NCBI RefSeq assembly: GCF_004011695.2
Contig: NC_082415.1
Span: 1,612,001 to 1,676,000 of the forward strand
DNA length: 64,000 bases
Direction of reading: 5' to 3'
From: Ascochyta rabiei
Taxonomy: Eukaryota; Ascomycota; Dothideomycetes; Pleosporales; Didymellaceae
The notes beneath the pieces are model-generated. The model ran no database searches and had not been told where the DNA came from. It saw only the letters and a program-made list of their open reading frames with translations. The translations under genes were made by a program, and so were the position numbers. Below are positions 31,560 to 64,000 of this stretch, in pieces (the first letter of the stretch is position 1; every line of letters starts with the position of its first letter).

Positions 31560-32136
31560 CCTACTATGGACAACAGCACATAGGAGTCTAAAACACTAAG
31601 CAACACCCTAGAATTTAGGTCTTATCGAAGCTAATTCAAGAGAGGATTTAGAGACACGCTGATAGCTTACTAACGTCTTTAGTTAACGCCCTTAGTCAGC
31701 TTATTAGAGTTGCAGAGCTAATGGCGCATTTACTACTTTTAGTGCGGAACTAGGTTGCTAACCTACAGGTATACGTCATAAATCACACAAAAGAAAGCAA
31801 ATCTAGCGTGAAGGGACACTACCGTTTACTAAAGGAGTGCAGCTAACTACTTTAAAAGAGTTTAAGGCCCGTAGTGGTGAGAAGAAGGCAAAGAAGAGGT
31901 TGTGTGTTAATAATAGCACTTAGTCTTAAAGGCGCTGTGGCATATGTAGTAAGACAGGGCATAACATGCAAACATGCAGCAAAGATGCACAAAGTACTCT
32001 AGATTAGTCTAGCTTACTGTGTAGTACAGTATATTGCTGCTGTGTACTGTAGTATTGCGAAGTAGTTGTGGTGTTGGTGTAGTCTTGGCAAAAGTGGACA
32101 GCTCGCTTGGGTGGGCAGCTCGCTAGTGGAGTACGT
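31560..32136 (+). pseudogene. C-terminal half of pogo/Fot1-like transposase with right TIR
   Basis: The plus-strand translation includes QLIRVAELMAHLLLLVRN near 31700-31755, a basic RR.R stretch near 31880-31900, and a zinc knuckle RRCGICSKTGHNMQTC (C-x2-C-x4-H-x4-C) at about 31930-31980. Fungal pogo/Fot1-type transposases end this way. The terminal inverted repeat, about 32094-32136, ends GGAGTACGT before TA and carries two copies of a GCTCGCT-type motif. The catalytic region is missing, cut off on the left by the hairpin repeat. The complementary half of such a transposase lies at 38800-39713. Confidence 0.7.
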
Positions 32137-32138
32137 TA

Positions 32139-33083
32139 CGTTAAAGGAGTTATTTAAGTTCCTAATCTTATATTTTAAGTTAAGGATCAAGTCTATATAC
32201 GTTGCTATCTATGCCCTAGTCTAGAAGTAGGATTAGTCTAATTACCCTATCTGATCCTGGTTGGGTCTGTAGTCAGCTCGGTCCGCAGTCTGCGCACATG
32301 ACCGTTATCCTTCACTGGGACAATAGTAAATCTCATGGCCACAACAGTACTTATTGCCAACCGGGTTGGAAGTGAACGTTGCCACATGCCGGTGCCTGAC
32401 AAGAAGAATGCTGGGTAATCCCAACGCCTGGTTGTCCGACGGACAACAAGGATAAATCTGACATCTTTAATTATTTTAATGACAGTGACATCCCTTTGCA
32501 TTTGTGTCAGACAATTTTACAGAGCTTACTGCCAAGACATGCTAATTTCGTGTTTAATCCAATGATATATGCGACATACCACAACACTGGCGTGGTCAGA
32601 CTGCAAGCACTTGAGAATGATGTCAATGCTCACAACGACGCATGGGGTCAAGTCTATGACCAGGTATGCCACTCAAAGGTTTTTCTAGTACCATGGGGAT
32701 CTGATCAATTATGCAGGCACACTTCCCGATACTGTACTATGACCTCTCTGAGGGGGACGGAGTGCTCACGATTAAACATGGCTCTGAACGGTCGATTGCT
32801 ACTGATCCCAACCTACTCCTACCCTTTTCGCCAGGCTAATCTCGGTGGTACTTAACCCAGGCTCATTCTCCTCCAGTATGTCCTTGTAACGTAGTTGTAG
32901 TGAAGTGCCGTGAATGGCTCCATCTCGGCGCTGGCCCGGGATGTCGCTGGCTCTTACCTGAGACAGCTACCGGAGCAGCCTCCGGATAAATTAAATCAAT
33001 AGTGTTATCTATAGCGACATTGACGGTAAGTTCGCTGCTGCACTACCCTAAACAGTAAACTTCTAAGTCACTACCCGCCTTCT
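32139..33083. other. Protease upstream region; RIP boundary near 32240
   Basis: 32139-32235 is still AT-rich and RIPped. From about 32240 composition becomes balanced, with normal CpA and TpG. No conserved gene is recognised; a 119-codon frame at 32496-32855 has no family resemblance. An almost perfect 17-bp palindrome, GTTGTCCGACGGACAAC, lies at 32431-32447 and contains CCG-N-CGG. Confidence 0.45.
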
Positions 33084-33092
33084 TATAAATAA
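33084..33092 (+). promoter_or_regulatory. Putative TATA box of the protease gene
   Basis: TATAAATAA lies 60 bp before the ATG. Spacing is plausible for a short 5' leader; the transcription start is not known. Confidence 0.5.
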
Positions 33093-33152
33093 TCGAGTCA
33101 ACACTCATGCATCGAAACGATCATCGTCTCTAGTTCTTTCAAATTCACCATT

Positions 33153-35549
33153 ATGGCAAAGTTTGCATGCGCTTTACTCGTCTGTGCTGCTCTTCTTGGA
33201 GGCGCTGTGACTCAGAGCACCAAACAAACATACATTGTTCAACTAGAGTCACAGCCAGATCTTCGTAGATCTACCATCCAACGACGCTCTGCTCATGAGA
33301 GTTCCCTCCAAAGAGTTGCTCCTCAGAACACCATAATCTATTCGTACCAGCATGTATTCGATGGGTACGCTGCATCTCTCAGTGACACCCAAGCTCGAGC
33401 TCTGCTTGACCAACCTGGAGTCAAAGCTGTCACTCGCTCAAAGAAGTATCACCTCCACACAACCCACACGCCTGAATTTCTTGGTCTAAACAACGTCGCG
33501 TTGTTTGGGCAGACCACATTAGCATCGTCTGGAACCAACGAAACCGAAAACGGGAATACCACCGCTGATTCTGAATCAGACATAGTGATTGGCATTGTGG
33601 ACACGGGGGTCTGGCCTGAGAGTGAGAGCTTTGACGATACTGGCATGCCACCTGTCCCGTCTTGGTGGAAGGGCTCTTGTGTAGAAGGAGAGCAGCTCAC
33701 TGCAGCTGATTGCAATAAAAAGCTCGTCGGAGCGAAATGGTTCAGCCAGGGGTATGAAGCTGATTTCAATGGTAGAAACAATGGCACTGCATTTAACTTT
33801 CATCGGGACTACCGGTCCGCAAGAGACGCTCAGGGCCACGGATCACACACCGCTTCTACCGCGGCCGGCAGCGTTGTCCAGAACGCGAGCTTATTTGGAC
33901 AAGCTTCTGGAAGCGCTCGAGGTATGGCCCCAAAGGCGCGGATAGCTGCGTACAAGGTCTGTTGGGGAGTTGAGACAACCAGCGACTGCACGAGCCCAGA
34001 TATACTCGCAGCTCTCGATGCTGCTATTGAAGATGGAGTCAAGATAGTCTCTCTTTCTCTCGGCGGCGAACCAAGCCTTTTACCCGACCCAGTATACGTC
34101 GGATTGTTCTCTGCAATGGCAAAGGGAATATTCGTCTCCATGTCTGCTGGCAATGATGGGCCTGGAGCCGGTACAGTGGCAAATAATGTCCCTTGGATTT
34201 TGACTGTTGGAGCGAGCACAACTGACCGTGATTTCCCGGCCACTGCTGTTCTTGGCAATGGGCTGAACATCACCGGCAAGTCACTCTCAGTCAATGAGGA
34301 TGGCTCTTTTCCAAAGTTTCAGGAACTACCACTCATTCTGGCCAGCGATGCGGCGAATGCGAATTCGACGAATAGCGACGATGCTTCCCTGTGTCAACCT
34401 GGTTCTCTTTCTTCCAGTAAGGTTGCTGGAAACATCGTCGTATGCATAAGGGGAATAAACGATAGAGTAGAAAAGGGCCAAGTTGTTAAAGATGCTGGGG
34501 GTTTGGGAATGATTCTAGTCAACGCTGACTGGGAAGGCGAAGATACAATAACAGACCCACATGTTCTTCCGGCTATCAACGTTGGCGCGAGCTATCGATC
34601 TGCATTGGCAGAGTACGTCGGTACCAAGGGCGCGAAAGCTGGTTTGGATATCAAGGGCACCACATTTGGTTTTCAAGCCCCTTCAATAGCCGCTTTCAGT
34701 TCAAGAGGTCCGAACTACCCTGTCCCAGAATTGCTTAAGCCTGACATAACGGGACCTGGAGTCAACATTTTGGCCGCATGGCCGAACAACCTGCCAGTCA
34801 CCAGTCTTCTTGAGGATACCCGAAGAGCCAGTTTCAACCTACTTTCAGGGACCTCCATGTCTTGTCCCCACCTGAGTGGCATAGCCGCATTGATCTTGGC
34901 AAGACGTCCCGGTTGGAGCGCTGCTGCCGTCCGCTCAGCTTTAATGACAACCGCATACACCACGACCAGGGGCAGTGATACACCCATAACGGACGCCTCT
35001 GACGGGGTTCCGGCATCGCCTTTCGACTATGGAAATGGCCATGTAGATGCACTCGCCGCTTTGAACCCCGGCTTGGTATACGACATCAAGACTGATGACT
35101 ACATAGACTTTCTATGCTATTATAACAGCTCTGCTGAATATATCCAAGGCATCACTGGCACGAATAGTACTTGCTCCGATAACAAGGAGTACAGCCCATA
35201 CGATCTCAATTATCCGTCTTTCGCAGCTGGCTACGACACGGCAAAAAACGAAAGTGAACCTAAGACTATACACTTTAAGCGAACGGTTACTAACGTTGGC
35301 GATCCCGGCACCTATCGTTTCAACGTGTCGCTCAGCAGCCCTGACCTCGTCAATGTCTTGGTAGAGCCTAAGGAGCTTACCTTCAACGCATCAAATGAGC
35401 AAAAGGGATTTACTGTCACAGCAACACTTAAACCGTCTGCCGCGGGTACAACTGTGACAGGAAGATTGGTTTGGTCAAACGGGTTGCACAAAGTTGGGAG
35501 CTCCTTAGGATTCGTATGGGGCAACTTGGCCGACCTGGGCTCAGATTGA
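33153..35549 (+). CDS. Plant-type subtilisin-like serine protease (S8), secreted
   Basis: An uninterrupted 798-residue preproprotease. Residues 1-20 form a signal peptide. About 25-105 is an I9 propeptide (TYIVQL) ending at TTHTPEFLGL, the usual start of plant subtilase catalytic domains. The triad is Asp150 (DTGVWPES), His229 (GHGSHT) and Ser568 (GTSMSCPH), with oxyanion Asn334 (SAGNDGP). A PA-type insertion occupies about 375-500. FSSRGPN and LKPDITGPGVNILAAW (residues 516-543) are plant subtilase hallmarks. An Fn3-like domain (about 685-785, TVTNVG) closes the protein. Many N-x-S/T sites suit secretion. The start has a good context (CACCATTATGG). No introns and no RIP stops are present, unlike everything around it. 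Likely an apoplastic endoprotease; the substrate is unknown. Fungal subtilases usually lack this PA-plus-Fn3 layout, so acquisition from a plant is inferred. Confidence 0.93.
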   Translation: MAKFACALLVCAALLGGAVTQSTKQTYIVQLESQPDLRRSTIQRRSAHESSLQRVAPQNTIIYSYQHVFDGYAASLSDTQARALLDQPGVKAVTRSKKYHLHTTHTPEFLGLNNVALFGQTTLASSGTNETENGNTTADSESDIVIGIVDTGVWPESESFDDTGMPPVPSWWKGSCVEGEQLTAADCNKKLVGAKWFSQGYEADFNGRNNGTAFNFHRDYRSARDAQGHGSHTASTAAGSVVQNASLFGQASGSARGMAPKARIAAYKVCWGVETTSDCTSPDILAALDAAIEDGVKIVSLSLGGEPSLLPDPVYVGLFSAMAKGIFVSMSAGNDGPGAGTVANNVPWILTVGASTTDRDFPATAVLGNGLNITGKSLSVNEDGSFPKFQELPLILASDAANANSTNSDDASLCQPGSLSSSKVAGNIVVCIRGINDRVEKGQVVKDAGGLGMILVNADWEGEDTITDPHVLPAINVGASYRSALAEYVGTKGAKAGLDIKGTTFGFQAPSIAAFSSRGPNYPVPELLKPDITGPGVNILAAWPNNLPVTSLLEDTRRASFNLLSGTSMSCPHLSGIAALILARRPGWSAAAVRSALMTTAYTTTRGSDTPITDASDGVPASPFDYGNGHVDALAALNPGLVYDIKTDDYIDFLCYYNSSAEYIQGITGTNSTCSDNKEYSPYDLNYPSFAAGYDTAKNESEPKTIHFKRTVTNVGDPGTYRFNVSLSSPDLVNVLVEPKELTFNASNEQKGFTVTATLKPSAAGTTVTGRLVWSNGLHKVGSSLGFVWGNLADLGSD

Positions 35550-35703
35550 ACTGACAGCTCTACTATGTAGAATGGATACCGGACTAAACAGTGAGCTATT
35601 TGAGAGAATTGACTATCATTTTGTTGTTTCTCTATTATGGCGTAGTAATACCTATAAGACCCTTCCAATTTAGCGTTATGCTCATGCTTCTGCTGTGTCG
35701 GCA
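35550..35703. other. Protease 3' flank
   Basis: Non-coding, with normal composition. No clear polyadenylation signal stands out, though AT-rich stretches at 35612-35660 are suitable. Confidence 0.4.
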
Positions 35704-36022
35704 TCAAATGCGCTCATGGGAATCTTTTGCGCTCTTGAGACGACATGAGGTTCCTCGTGTCCATATATGATCCTCTGGAGGTTTGGGTTGATTTTTCGGA
35801 CCAGGTTGGCCATTGTGATTAGAAACCGGCGATTCGTTCTGGCGGCGGCGGCGGCGGATAAGAAAGAAACGTAGCTATCGCTACGATGGTCATAACTGCC
35901 GCTATGCCAACGGCTACTCCTACTTTGGCTCCGGTTGACAGTACTTCGCCAATTCTACCGTCGCGGAAGGCATTGCTGCTCGTTTCACCGCCGGTGGACA
36001 CCAGCTCAGTCATCCGTTGCAT
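35704..36022 (-). pseudogene. Frameshifted tail of a single-pass membrane protein
   Basis: On the minus strand, the frame from 36022 has a Ser/Gly-rich stretch, then GAKVGVAVGIAAVMTIVAIA as a membrane helix. It then runs into a proline-only stretch. Shifting one base at about 35855-35865 gives FFLIRRRRRQNE, a perfect stop-transfer tail, and a hydrophilic cytoplasmic end of some 45 residues stopping at 35704. Fungal wall-sensor and lectin-like surface proteins commonly have this STGAK-helix-RRRRR layout. The extracellular part upstream of 36022 is missing. It is either a pseudogene end or a last exon with a sequencing error in the CCG repeat region. Confidence 0.5.
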
Positions 36023-36144
36023 TGATTTTCAAGAGCGCGAGGATCCTCCCAGAAAGCCGACGCCCTTCGATGTCATCAGCATATGGCGCACTTAGGATCA
36101 GCTGTCATCGAACATCTCGCTCCAAAATCTGAGGAGTTGAGGAT
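36023..36144. other. Junction between membrane-protein relic and copia fragment
   Basis: Balanced composition, nothing recognised. The extracellular domain expected upstream of the membrane helix is not readable here. Confidence 0.4.
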
Positions 36145-36674
36145 TAAGTGCATCACCACAGTCCAGTGCGACACATGCTAGAGAGCCAAGACTAAGAGAC
36201 AATTTAGGCGAACGGTGCAGCAGATTGACGAAGGTCCTAGTAAGCAGATGTAAACAGACTCCCATTCAGATAGAGAAGAAAGCTCCGTTAAGGAGAAGAG
36301 CTGACTGCGTGTCACTGACTGATACTAAGGCTTTCTCTAGGACTTTTACCTAAGGAACTTCTACTCAAGAATAATCTCCTAAGCAAATTTGTTATCTACT
36401 TCTTGGATACCCTTACCCGCTTCCTCCATTAGCAATATCAGATTCAATCAAGTTGATTAAGCGCGACGGAGGGATCACGATGAAACCAGAGGTGGCTGAA
36501 CAGTGCGCTGCGCAGTTGGCCTCTCCAGAACCTACAGTACCAGACACCCAAGCTCAGAACAGAGGTGCCAAACGCTCACAGAGTGTGGTCAAAGAAAATG
36601 CACGCACTTTGAGACAAGACGTGAACTTACTACGCGAGATGAAGCCAGAGACTGTACAAGCCGCAGTCTACTAA
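36145..36674 (+). pseudogene. copia integrase fragment, almost free of RIP
   Basis: The translation gives ITTVQCDTC.RAKTKRQ near 36150-36210, matching the end of the copia GAG-pre-integrase zinc site. The integrase core continues in shifted frames to PDTQAQNRGAKRSQ and VKENARTLRQD (36520-36625) and ends EMKPETVQAAVY at 36674. The same tract in the copia at 17831-23023 (19870-20370) is full of stops, while here Gln, Trp and Arg codons survive. A few indels and stops break the frame, and no LTRs are present. The last 74 codons (36453-36674) are open, but this is a fragment, not a gene. Confidence 0.75.
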
Positions 36675-37346
36675 TGAATGCTGATATCGTAAATTGACTA
36701 AAAAATTGCTCTTCTCCTCTGCAACCTTAACATAACAACAGCAATATAATCAAAGCAAGCGTACAAAAGCAAAATACGGACATAGGGCCCTGCACACCAA
36801 AAGATCATCAGAATCTATCTTAACCTAGCGAGGATATTCTATCCTCAGCTTCCTAGAGCCTCTAGGCGTCTGGTTGCTGCACGCTGCCTGGTTATTTAAC
36901 CTGTTCTGTTGCAAAAAAATCCGGATTTGCAGAGCACAGACTACGCCTACAACAAATTATCTTATCTTATTTTATCTAAAACAATCTTATCTAAATATTA
37001 CTACAACTAATAAAACAATCTATCTTTATAACAGATAGCAACAAGCCTTTCCTTAGCTTTCTACTTTTAACCTCTTCTTTCTTCTCCTGGAGGTCTATAA
37101 GTTAGGCCAGTAAGAATAGAATAAAGGCAAGATTAGTAATGCTAAGACTGCCTTTTTCCCTATTTTTCAGCCCTAAAAAGCGGACAGAGACTGGGTACCT
37201 CTGCCTGTGCAAAAATAAGCTCTTCTCTAGTTATTTTATAGTTATTTTGTTATAAAAGAGAAGGAAGCCCTACCTAGGACTAGGACCCTGGGACTATAGA
37301 ACTAGAACCACCACCTAATAGAGAGTACTCTCTAGATAGAGAGACA
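36675..37346 (+). other. LINE 5' region, transition back to RIPped DNA
   Basis: Moderately RIPped leader before the LINE ORF1. It includes TTATCTTATCTTATTTTATC-like AT repeats at about 36957-36980. No gene is recognised. Confidence 0.4.
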
Positions 37347-61100: not shown

Positions 61101-61205
61101 TTAGTAGACAGCAGCAAGAAAGGTTAGGGAGAGCTAGAGCAGTTGTTACGTAGGCCTACGTAGTAACAACCTAGGATTTACACAACAACTGCTGTAACTC
61201 TACCA
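58131..61205 (+). pseudogene. gypsy pol pseudogene (protease region to RT)
   Basis: RT motifs are clear: LINFFSRYN.VELH at about 60411-60455, then ITPLGLVHQY-like text. YIDNITIKG (YIDD-type, Asp to Asn) is near 60602-60630, followed by VGYVVDKRGRYLATKKVQKI and FLRLCVYYCI, then SPIAAPLF at about 60940-60960. It reads into RNase H and stops at about 61200. The layout resembles the lineage of fungal gypsy with a long segment between gag and RT (58600-59600). Integrase is absent because the element is cut off. Confidence 0.68.
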
Positions 61206-61327
61206 GTTGTAATCGGAATCTCACTGTATATGGACCGTTTGAAAGCGCTCGTTTTGCTCTACATTTCTGTAGTACATGGTTTTGCAATAACTGCTTTAGT
61301 TAAAGAGTTACACGCCGACACCTACAG
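61206..61327. other. Short segment with little RIP before minisatellite
   Basis: About 120 bp with normal CpG and CpA content (GGAATCTCACTGTATATGG, GAAAGCGCTCG), bounded by RIPped gypsy on the left and minisatellite on the right. A 113-codon open frame (61230-61571) begins here but runs straight through the CCCTACCC array, so it is not taken as a gene. Confidence 0.5.
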
Positions 61328-61528
61328 GCCCTACTTAGGCCTACCTCTTCCCTACAGACCCTACCCCAAACCCTACCCTACCCTACCTCTACCCAACGTC
61401 CGTGCGGACCCTACCCTACCCCTACCCTATGTGGACCCTACCCCTACCCTACCCCTACCCCTGGTCCGTGCGGACCGTACCCAACCCCTACCCAACCCCG
61501 AGGTACCCCCTTCCCTTTTGCCAGCGTA
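61328..61528. repeat. Telomere-like CCCTACCC minisatellite, copy 3
   Basis: The least mutated copy. It has two exact palindromic inserts (CGTCCGTGCGGACC near 61397-61410 and GGTCCGTGCGGACC near 61463-61476) and a TATGTGGACC spacer. It ends CCCTTTTGCCAGCGTA, abutting the integrase of the next gypsy. Confidence 0.85.
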
Positions 61529-64000
61529 TCTTAGCGTACTTAGTAAATCTGTCAACTATAACAAAGATTAGGTTGTAGTTGTATTTAGTTATTAGGTCTC
61601 TTAAGATAGGTAGCTGTGTAAGAAAGTCTATTGTAATATTTGTCTATAGTGCTGTTAGTGGCTCTATTACCTACATTTCTCCGTATTTTGCGTGTGTACT
61701 GTGTTTATTTTACTAACAGTTAATATAGTTCTTACCGTATTTAGTAACCTTGTCCTTTATATTACTAAACTTATAGTATTAGTTAATAAGTTCTATAATG
61801 CGTGTAATTCTAGGGTGTCTGTGTAGCAGGTTATTGTAGTAATTAGCTATAATTTTGTCCTAAAATTCCTCTAGTACGTGTATTGTAATGCGCTGTTTGT
61901 TTTTAATTTGCATTATATTGTTTAGTTACTGTAATAGTCTAAGTAACCTGTTATTGTTAATTCCTAGTACTGCGAACTAGTTTATTGTTTTTTCTCTAGT
62001 AAGGTTATATTATCTGCTAAGTGCGTTAGCTCTACTATTATCTTTACCTAGCGTATACAATATCTTATATTTATATAACCTAAGTATCTTAGACTAACAT
62101 ACTTGTTGTTAATTTAAGACCTTAGTAGTAGTAAAGTATACTAGATTCTTATAGTTAGTATAGATAGTAAGCTCTAAGCAGCTTTCTACATATAGTTGCT
62201 AATGTTCTAGGGCTAATATAATTATAAGTAATTCTTTGTAATACACATTATAGCGTTCTTTAGGTCCTAAGAACCTACGTAAGTAGGAAGTAATAGGATG
62301 CTATAGTCTATCCTTTTCTTATGTAATACATGCGCCTAATATAAGATCTAAGGCGTTAGTCTCTATACACATTAGTTTGCTACTATAAAATGTAATTAAC
62401 GTAGGAGGTGTAATATAGGCTTACATAAGTGCCTTAAACACAGTATTCTATTCTTGTCTCTACTTAAATGGTGTATTCTTCTACGTAAGCTTTGTTAGCA
62501 GAATTGTAATCTTAGAGTAGTCCTTAATAAAGCGTTAGTTAAAGTTAACAAACCCTAAGAATTCCTAAATCTGCTTAACAGTTTTTGGCGTCTGCTAAGT
62601 TCTAACTACTTCTACCTTTGTTAGACTAATCTTAACTCTATATCGCCCTACAATGTACCCTAGGAATTTAACTTCCTTGTTGTGCTATTTACACTTCTTA
62701 GGTTTAAGTTGTAGGTCTGCCTACCTTAGGCATTCTAGTACTTCTCTAACGTGTTGTTTGTACTCTTCTACTATCTTTAAATACAATAGGATATTGTCTA
62801 GGTACGCTACTACAGTTCTGTTAAGGTGTACTCTTAGGACGTTGTTAATTAACTCCTAGCATGTTACTAGTACGTTTGTTAGACTAAATAGTATAACTAG
62901 GTACTTATAGAGTCTATATTGCGTCTTAAATACTATTTTCTATTCTTCTTCTTTCTTTATGTGTATAAGGTTGTACGCGCCTTATAGGTCTAACGCTATA
63001 AAATACTAAACTACTACTAGCTAGTCCTGTAACTCTGTAATGTTTAGGAGCAGGTAGTAGTTCTTAATAGTAATTTTATTAAGCTTCCTAAAATTAATAT
63101 AAGGTTGTAGCTTACTACTCTTCTTAGGACCAAACATAATTAGGTACCCTGTAGGTACTTCCAATCTTCTAATAAATCCCTTCTTAAGGTTCTCCTTCAT
63201 GTACTTGTAAAGTACTTTAAATTCCTTTTCTAATAAATAATATAATAGCCTAAAAGTTAGTGTCTTTCCTTTCTAGAGCTTAATCTTATAATCCTAGCGT
63301 TTATGCTTAGGCAGGGCTTTTGCTATAAGCTCTTTTCTAAATATCTCTGCGTACTGTCTGTACACGTTAGGGATAGCAGAAGGTGCACTTCTCTCCTCCT
63401 TAACTCTTACTTTATAATCTGTAGGGCGTTTAGTATCTGTAGAGTTAACTGCTTTATCTTAGCATGTCTTATATATTAAAGAGACATTATTAATCTCCTT
63501 TTTATCTACTAGCTGCTGCGTGCGCTGCGTAGACGTAGATACATTAGTACTACATTTACATCCTTCTAACAAAAGTCTTTCTTATACCTAGTCTATCTTT
63601 AGGTTCTGCTTTTATAACTAGGGAAGTTCTAATATAACGTTATGTGTAGACTTTGTAAAGACGTCTAGGTTTATTTCCTTATAGTGCCCCTGTATCTATA
63701 GGGGTGCTGCTATTACTTTAAACATAATTAGCAGTTTATCTAGCATTAATTTTCTATTAGCTACTTAGAGTAAGTAAGTGTTTTCCTTATAATATAATCT
63801 AAGTCTAGCTTACTAAATTACTGTTCTAGATATGTAACTTACTTATGCTTCTAAGTCTAAGAGTGCTGTTAAGGCTACCCTATTTAGTTTAATAGGTAGC
63901 TTAATAAAGTAATTGTTCCTAATACTATCAGTAGATTAATCCCTAGGGCTTGTAGGCGCTGGCCTAAAAAGGTCCCCTCTTTACTAAACCCTTTAAACTC
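61529..64000 (-). pseudogene. Ty3/gypsy pol (RT, RNase H, start of integrase), runs off window
   Basis: Minus-strand chromovirus-like pol. RT: VAYLDNILLYLK (YLDD with Asp to Asn) at about 62788-62823, then KFLGYIVGRYRVKISLTKVEVV and EFLGFVNFN. RNase H: YKELLIIILALEHQQLYVE near 62200-62260 and YFTTTKVLN near 62110-62140. The integrase region begins with NCYQNKHSTHAKYGEM near 61675-61720 and NLIFVIVDRFTKYAK at 61530-61575, where it is broken by the minisatellite terminus. The 5' part lies beyond 64000. Stops are frequent. It is a fourth gypsy family in the window. Confidence 0.75.

Follow-up and report, generated by a model that had tools for sequence, protein, structure and literature searches.

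The window, a 64,000-nucleotide stretch of the genome of the chickpea-blight fungus Ascochyta rabiei, contains a plant-like subtilase gene at 33153..35549 on the forward strand, as are all of its features given here. The gene is an intact, intronless frame that reads from an ATG at 33153 to a TGA at 35549 and comprises 798 codons plus the stop. Its product begins with a hydrophobic, signal-peptide-like N-terminus of approximately 20 residues (33153..33212), recognized by eye and modeled with low confidence as a helix at residues 2-15. Pfam then assigns an Inhibitor_I9 propeptide (residues 26-102, 33228..33458), a Peptidase_S8 domain (residues 142-629, 33576..35039) with a PA domain inserted within it (residues 402-479, 34356..34589), and a C-terminal fn3_6 domain (residues 684-784, 35202..35504). 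By pattern count, a 37-residue linker (33489..33599) leads from FLGL to the catalytic aspartate, and pLDDT in the predicted model is low at residues 105-137. The catalytic residues Asp150 (33600..33602), His229 (33837..33839) and Ser568 (34854..34856) and the oxyanion Asn334 (34152..34154) lie in the expected motifs, and all four are invariant across an alignment of 35 sequences, one of which (P0047) was later placed among plants in the tree. The frame, domains and catalytic residues had been listed in a preliminary description of the window together with four signature strings (DTGVWPES, TTHTPEFLGL, FSSRGPN and GTSMSCPH), and all of these were recovered from the translation and the domain searches.

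This architecture is that of the plant SBT1-type (S8A) subtilases. The fn3_6 domain is a C-terminal domain typical of plant SBTs, and an SBT1.7 control (P0056) gave the identical set of I9, S8 with PA insert and fn3_6; the catalytic D, H, N and S are all present. Angiosperm SBT1.7-type proteins thus share domain layout and catalytic residues with the A. rabiei protein, but are 46-50% identical to it among the matches listed and have a linker of 21-25 residues rather than 37. The predicted model (mean pLDDT 81, pTM 0.85) found its best fold matches in 7eox from Euphorbia resinifera, tomato SBT3 and cucumisin, with TM scores of 0.83-0.90 depending on the target and 35-41% identity over the fold alignment. 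The same three were the top PDB matches by sequence, and the predicted fold is accordingly of the SBT3/cucumisin type.

The gene is single copy. A search of the genome (40,901,820 bases in 23 contigs) returned one DNA match, and fn3_6 was matched once in the genome, in this gene. Other subtilases are present, represented by 19 matches to PF00082, some of which are pieces of one gene. That the host genome is fungal, as previously described, is confirmed by a native subtilase that is 100% identical to EKO05_0004598 of Ascochyta rabiei. This vpr-type protein, our native control, resembles the plant-like protein in being a subtilase with a fibronectin-like C-terminal domain, but that domain is fn3_5 rather than fn3_6, and neither I9 nor PA was matched at E 1e-3. 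Its relatives, named among the best 120 of 1424 matches, occur in many fungi that we take to be Pleosporales and in others that are presumably Sordariomycetes. The plant-like protein stands apart from native fungal subtilases by its best native match of 34% over 178 residues and by the different domain set of this one native protein; the trees described below cover plant-type fungal, plant-like and bacterial rows. GC3 is 0.49 for the plant-like gene versus 0.62 for the native control, and ranges from 0.47 to 0.88 for frames of at least 250 aa in a GC-balanced part of the gene's contig.

The surroundings of the gene are those of mutated repeats. The RIP composite index is high outside the window's 32-37 kb (approximately +0.95 to +2.8 per kb), and it is -0.52 in the gene. 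On the window's contig (C11), the DNA from ~1582 to 1746 kb forms a block of ~164 kb in which almost all 2-kb bins are AT-rich and of high index. The subtilase gene is the only frame of more than 250 aa in this block, and one other frame reaches 200 aa: the subtilase frame measures 818 aa from stop to stop, and the other, an open frame of 211 aa, lies at C11:1736771-1737403. The gene itself occupies an un-RIPed island of 4.6 kb (32139..36765) that, by RIP index and repeat searches, is free of both flanking repeat families. On one side is the right-hand end of a RIP-mutated repeat family (31700..32138, searched from 31700 only) with at least 35 other long copies; on the other is the left-hand end of a second RIP-mutated family (36766..37300, searched to 37300 only) found at 39 or more other places. 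The index around the gene, the mutated repeats on both sides and the extent of the block uphold the earlier placement of the gene in a dead-transposon compartment. Upstream of the gene, a piece of ~166 bases (window ~32158-32324) recurs on contigs C15 and C4 at 82-85%. The frames at 32400-32852 and 61167-61568 gave no Pfam match.

Plant-like sequence in a fungus prompts the question of contamination or an assembly artefact. We give this virtually no credence, as the gene lies between two repeat families of the same genome on a contig that terminates in telomere repeats on either side, and relatives at 71-80% identity exist in A. lentis and A. clinopodiicola.

The gene belongs to a family that is spread among fungi. 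A protein search (best 120 of 4095 matches) and a fungal-profile search (best 120 of 4158) together yielded at least 34 full-length fungal rows, consisting of 23 named to species, the window's own and 10 unnamed rows placed by the tree; three further fungal fragments were among the protein-search matches listed. The preliminary description had proposed that restriction to one fungal genus would speak for transfer from a plant. Instead, the 24 rows with a species represent 11 genera among the matches listed: Ascochyta, Diaporthe, Gnomoniopsis, Discula, Colletotrichum, Verticillium (listed under the name Verticillium albo-atrum), Plectosphaerella, Paramyrothecium, Oculimacula, Rhynchosporium and Rhexocercosporidium. 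With taxonomy looked up, and with class and order presumed by us for Colletotrichum, Discula, Plectosphaerella, Rhynchosporium and Rhexocercosporidium, they fall in the Dothideomycetes, Sordariomycetes and Leotiomycetes, and in the orders Pleosporales, Diaporthales, Hypocreales, Glomerellales and Helotiales. Among the named rows listed, Ascochyta is the only representative of the Dothideomycetes. In the fungal-profile search the full-length fungal rows all reached at least 1189 bits, compared with 1008 for the top plant-like row of normal length (767 aa). Any further full-length fungal member among the 7996 candidates scored would thus be expected in the list. Ascochyta was the only one of the Pleosporales named among the best 120 of 4158, and no other Didymellaceae were named among the matches listed in that search or in the native-control search. 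The latter (best 120 of 1424) showed that Alternaria, Curvularia, Bipolaris, Pyrenophora and Plenodomus are present in the database. Within the plant-like family, P0062 from C. truncatum and P0023 from Paramyrothecium have long branches, which may reflect fast evolution or paralogues.

To place the family we used four sets of sequences. The largest tree held 34 fungal, 68 plant-like and 17 of at least 79 bacterial rows; the first careful tree held 24 of the 34 fungal rows, 24 plant-like and six bacterial rows, some of them long. Later trees and AU tests used a re-chosen set of 12 fungal, 28 plant-like and six bacterial rows, chosen after the long rows X_P0125b, X_P0017b, B_L058 and B_L065 had been removed, and a fungal-family tree held 37 fungal rows (three of them fragments) with four plants. 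For the largest tree, 24 plant models were 1192-1474 aa long: 16 with two active-site motifs were split in two, six with one motif were kept whole and the two without a motif (P0044 and P0129) were excluded. None of the plant rows is known as gymnosperm, fern, moss or SBT2, and the labels "SBT1 other" and "SBT3-5" are our own, after the source names.

The fungal rows formed a single clade in every tree of the first three sets: 34/34 in the largest tree, 24/24 with 100/100 support in the first careful tree, and 12/12 with the re-chosen set, in both the full tree and a tree of the catalytic core and C-terminal part. In both re-chosen trees the fungi joined angiosperm SBT1.7 at 100/99, with other plant SBTs and then bacteria outside. 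Nesting of the fungi within plants was weaker in the first careful tree (91/62 and 88/70) and in the first AU test, where a single plant clade was rejected at a borderline p of 0.045; the re-chosen set rejected it at 0.014, and its catalytic core and C-terminal part at 0.0035. These data support an ancestry within the plant SBTs sampled, with the fungal members as one clade sister to angiosperm SBT1.7.

Bacteria also have SBT-like proteases, with at least 79 prokaryote loci found, 78 of the 79 being 34-42% identical to a query whose first sequence is plant SBT1.7, and one could suppose that the fungal gene came from them. The trees led us to reject this origin, to which we assign only a very small probability: bacterial rows lie outside the plant and fungal clade (17 in the largest tree, six in each smaller one). 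The sole match of 47%, L067 (NYXK01000005.1, 1900-4310), is labelled as a Deltaproteobacteria MAG, and proved to be a fungal plant-like subtilase gene whose contig, also fungal, sits in a mislabelled bin; the gene is 81% identical to Rhexocercosporidium over 292 aa. It contains a short intron whose borders are, by eye, of fungal type, which is consistent with long residence in fungi.

A plant ancestor could also have come to Ascochyta directly from a plant host, in a separate transfer. Ascochyta species are plant-dwelling, and the protein is ~50% identical to one SBT1.7. We nevertheless regard this route as highly improbable, since the fungi form one clade and two separate origins were rejected with the re-chosen set at the sampling used, whether SBT1.7 was joined to Ascochyta and Diaporthe (p 1e-6) or to Glomerellales and Helotiales (p 4e-6), with the groups in these tests, as in the Diaporthales and Sordariomycetes tests below, picked after the first tree had been viewed. 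Most fungal rows also share a longer linker before the catalytic Asp, of 27-43 residues in 32 of 34 rows versus 21-25 in 105 plant-like proteins, as counted by a simple pattern that gave no value for fungal P0009 and 22 for P0038. The same pattern gave no value for 32 of 79 bacterial rows and 21-38 for the rest. Of the acquisition from a plant put forward previously, the plant ancestry is supported and direct capture by one genus is not.

Several observations point to movement of the gene between fungi after its entry. Ascochyta and Diaporthe were grouped at 100/100 in both the first careful and the fungal-family trees, with the Gnomoniaceae, which belong to the same order Diaporthales as Diaporthe, elsewhere. 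Diaporthales as one clade were rejected at p 7e-69 in the first AU round, and Sordariomycetes at p 6e-49 with the re-chosen set. The plant-like protein is 61.5-68.5% identical between Ascochyta and Diaporthe compared with 46.7-48.6% for the native control, a single protein that was compared with one Diaporthe species, a different one from those used for the plant-like protein. Within Ascochyta the relation is reversed: identity is 70.6-79.9% for the plant-like protein and 85.3-87.5% for the control. The plant-like protein is therefore more similar between classes, and less similar within the genus, than the control, which shows the pattern of vertical descent. Whether Ascochyta falls among the Diaporthe rows depends on the tree: it did with the re-chosen set (97/90 in the full tree, 83/34 with the core and C-terminal part) and did not in the first careful tree (96/91) or the fungal-family tree (65/85).

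These patterns bear on an older vertical inheritance, in which the gene was already in the ancestor of Dothideomycetes, Leotiomycetes and Sordariomycetes, was duplicated and mostly lost, and now yields a tree that mixes paralogues. The family is held by five orders in three classes, and the first careful and fungal-family trees give poor resolution of how the three deep fungal lines branch, as would suit such a history. It would require a gene that predates the split of the classes to adjoin SBT1.7 inside the plant rows, and it does not account for the excess Ascochyta-Diaporthe identity over the native control or for Ascochyta being alone among named Pleosporales in the best 120 of 4158 matches with other Pleosporales in the database. 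We consider it unlikely, if less so than the origins weighed above. Broad vertical presence across ascomycetes, which the preliminary description had set against transfer, is not what the gene tree depicts, as it conflicts with fungal classification.

We therefore favor, at a probability of roughly 0.85, a history in which a plant gene of the SBT1.7 lineage entered ascomycetes once and was then passed between fungi, the A. rabiei copy having its latest known source in common with Diaporthe, a member of another class. Ascochyta and Diaporthe would have received it one from the other or from a third fungus. For Ascochyta the nearest known donor line was most likely fungal, or else a source common to it and Diaporthe, and not a plant, as the 11-genus fungal clade and the conflict between gene tree and classification suggest.

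How the enzyme might be used can be considered from its architecture. The folded I9 domain of subtilases keeps the enzyme inactive until cleavage removes it; the mature form is secreted. By this analogy, and given its signal-like N-terminus, the A. rabiei protein would be secreted, remove its own I9 propeptide and cut host proteins, or proteins of the fungus itself, in the apoplast. Because plant SBT architecture and active site are retained, the enzyme would most likely be used on proteins that are natural substrates of SBT1-type proteases in plants; SBT biology offers, as candidate targets, the turnover of cell-wall enzymes or of defence proteins. It is plausible that the protein acts in the apoplast and imitates a host protease, and the N-terminus and the RIP compartment both fit an apoplastic effector. 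A general nutrient protease of the same ancestry, with no host-specific or mimic role, is a less favored but serious possibility in a genome with other subtilases. Against it, the complete active site is kept in the aligned fungal rows, the gene is kept where almost no other long frame survives and a Colletotrichum relative is reported to be induced in maize leaves at 48-72 h (PMC3598655). We see about even odds for the fuller reading that an SBT1.7-lineage gene, captured once, has been handed from class to class of plant-associated fungi, to serve as a ready-made protease for the apoplast that would work like the host enzyme, and that in A. rabiei it alone among long genes has stayed intact in the ~164 kb of RIP-killed DNA. 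As a whole, the earlier interpretation is partly supported.

The family has a precedent in the Colletotrichum plant-like subtilisins (CPLS), which a 2013 report places in Colletotrichum only (PMC3598655) and which, for C. truncatum, are likened to SBT1.7 in another paper (PMC5573122). The A. rabiei protein falls in the CPLS clade in the largest, first careful and fungal-family trees and shares the CPLS domain set and SBT1.7 affinity. It is of the CPLS kind but is not a Colletotrichum CPLS, sharing ~50-52% identity with the three sequences from Colletotrichum that were compared, coming from a different class, and being nearest outside Ascochyta to Diaporthe. Among the matches listed in searches of open-licence literature we found no report of the family beyond Colletotrichum, and later papers describe it in that genus. 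An analysis of plant subtilases derives the SBT1-5 groups of streptophytes from bacteria by one transfer, finds SBTs absent in fungi by its own search and cites plant-like subtilisins in fungi in its discussion (PMC6713707). Few gene transfers lead from plants to fungi, and the reported range of this one was Colletotrichum alone. With its clade present in three fungal classes, and with a fungus-to-fungus step, it would no longer be the case of a single genus but a gene common to various plant-associated fungi, and a testable case of a host enzyme reused against or beside its host. The wider occurrence also weakens a published dating argument that rests on absence from Verticillium.

Possible carriers and the end of the contig were also inspected. 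A Starship vector was rejected, as C11 has no match to DUF3435 (Starship captain). A viral carrier seems unlikely, viral contigs having given one weak match (36%, E 6e-8). Captain-type DUF3435 gave 16 match pieces on contigs other than C11, 15 of them with internal stops. Beyond the RIP block and outside the window, C11:1746000-1786714 (L105-L109) is GC-balanced and subtelomeric, with few frames of more than 200 aa. We discarded rDNA as an explanation of this chromosome end, as one 10-kb piece searched (L106) gave no Rfam match. Pieces of a 3-kb sample of the stretch (L106:1-3000) are found again, with 65-97% identity, close to where many contigs end.
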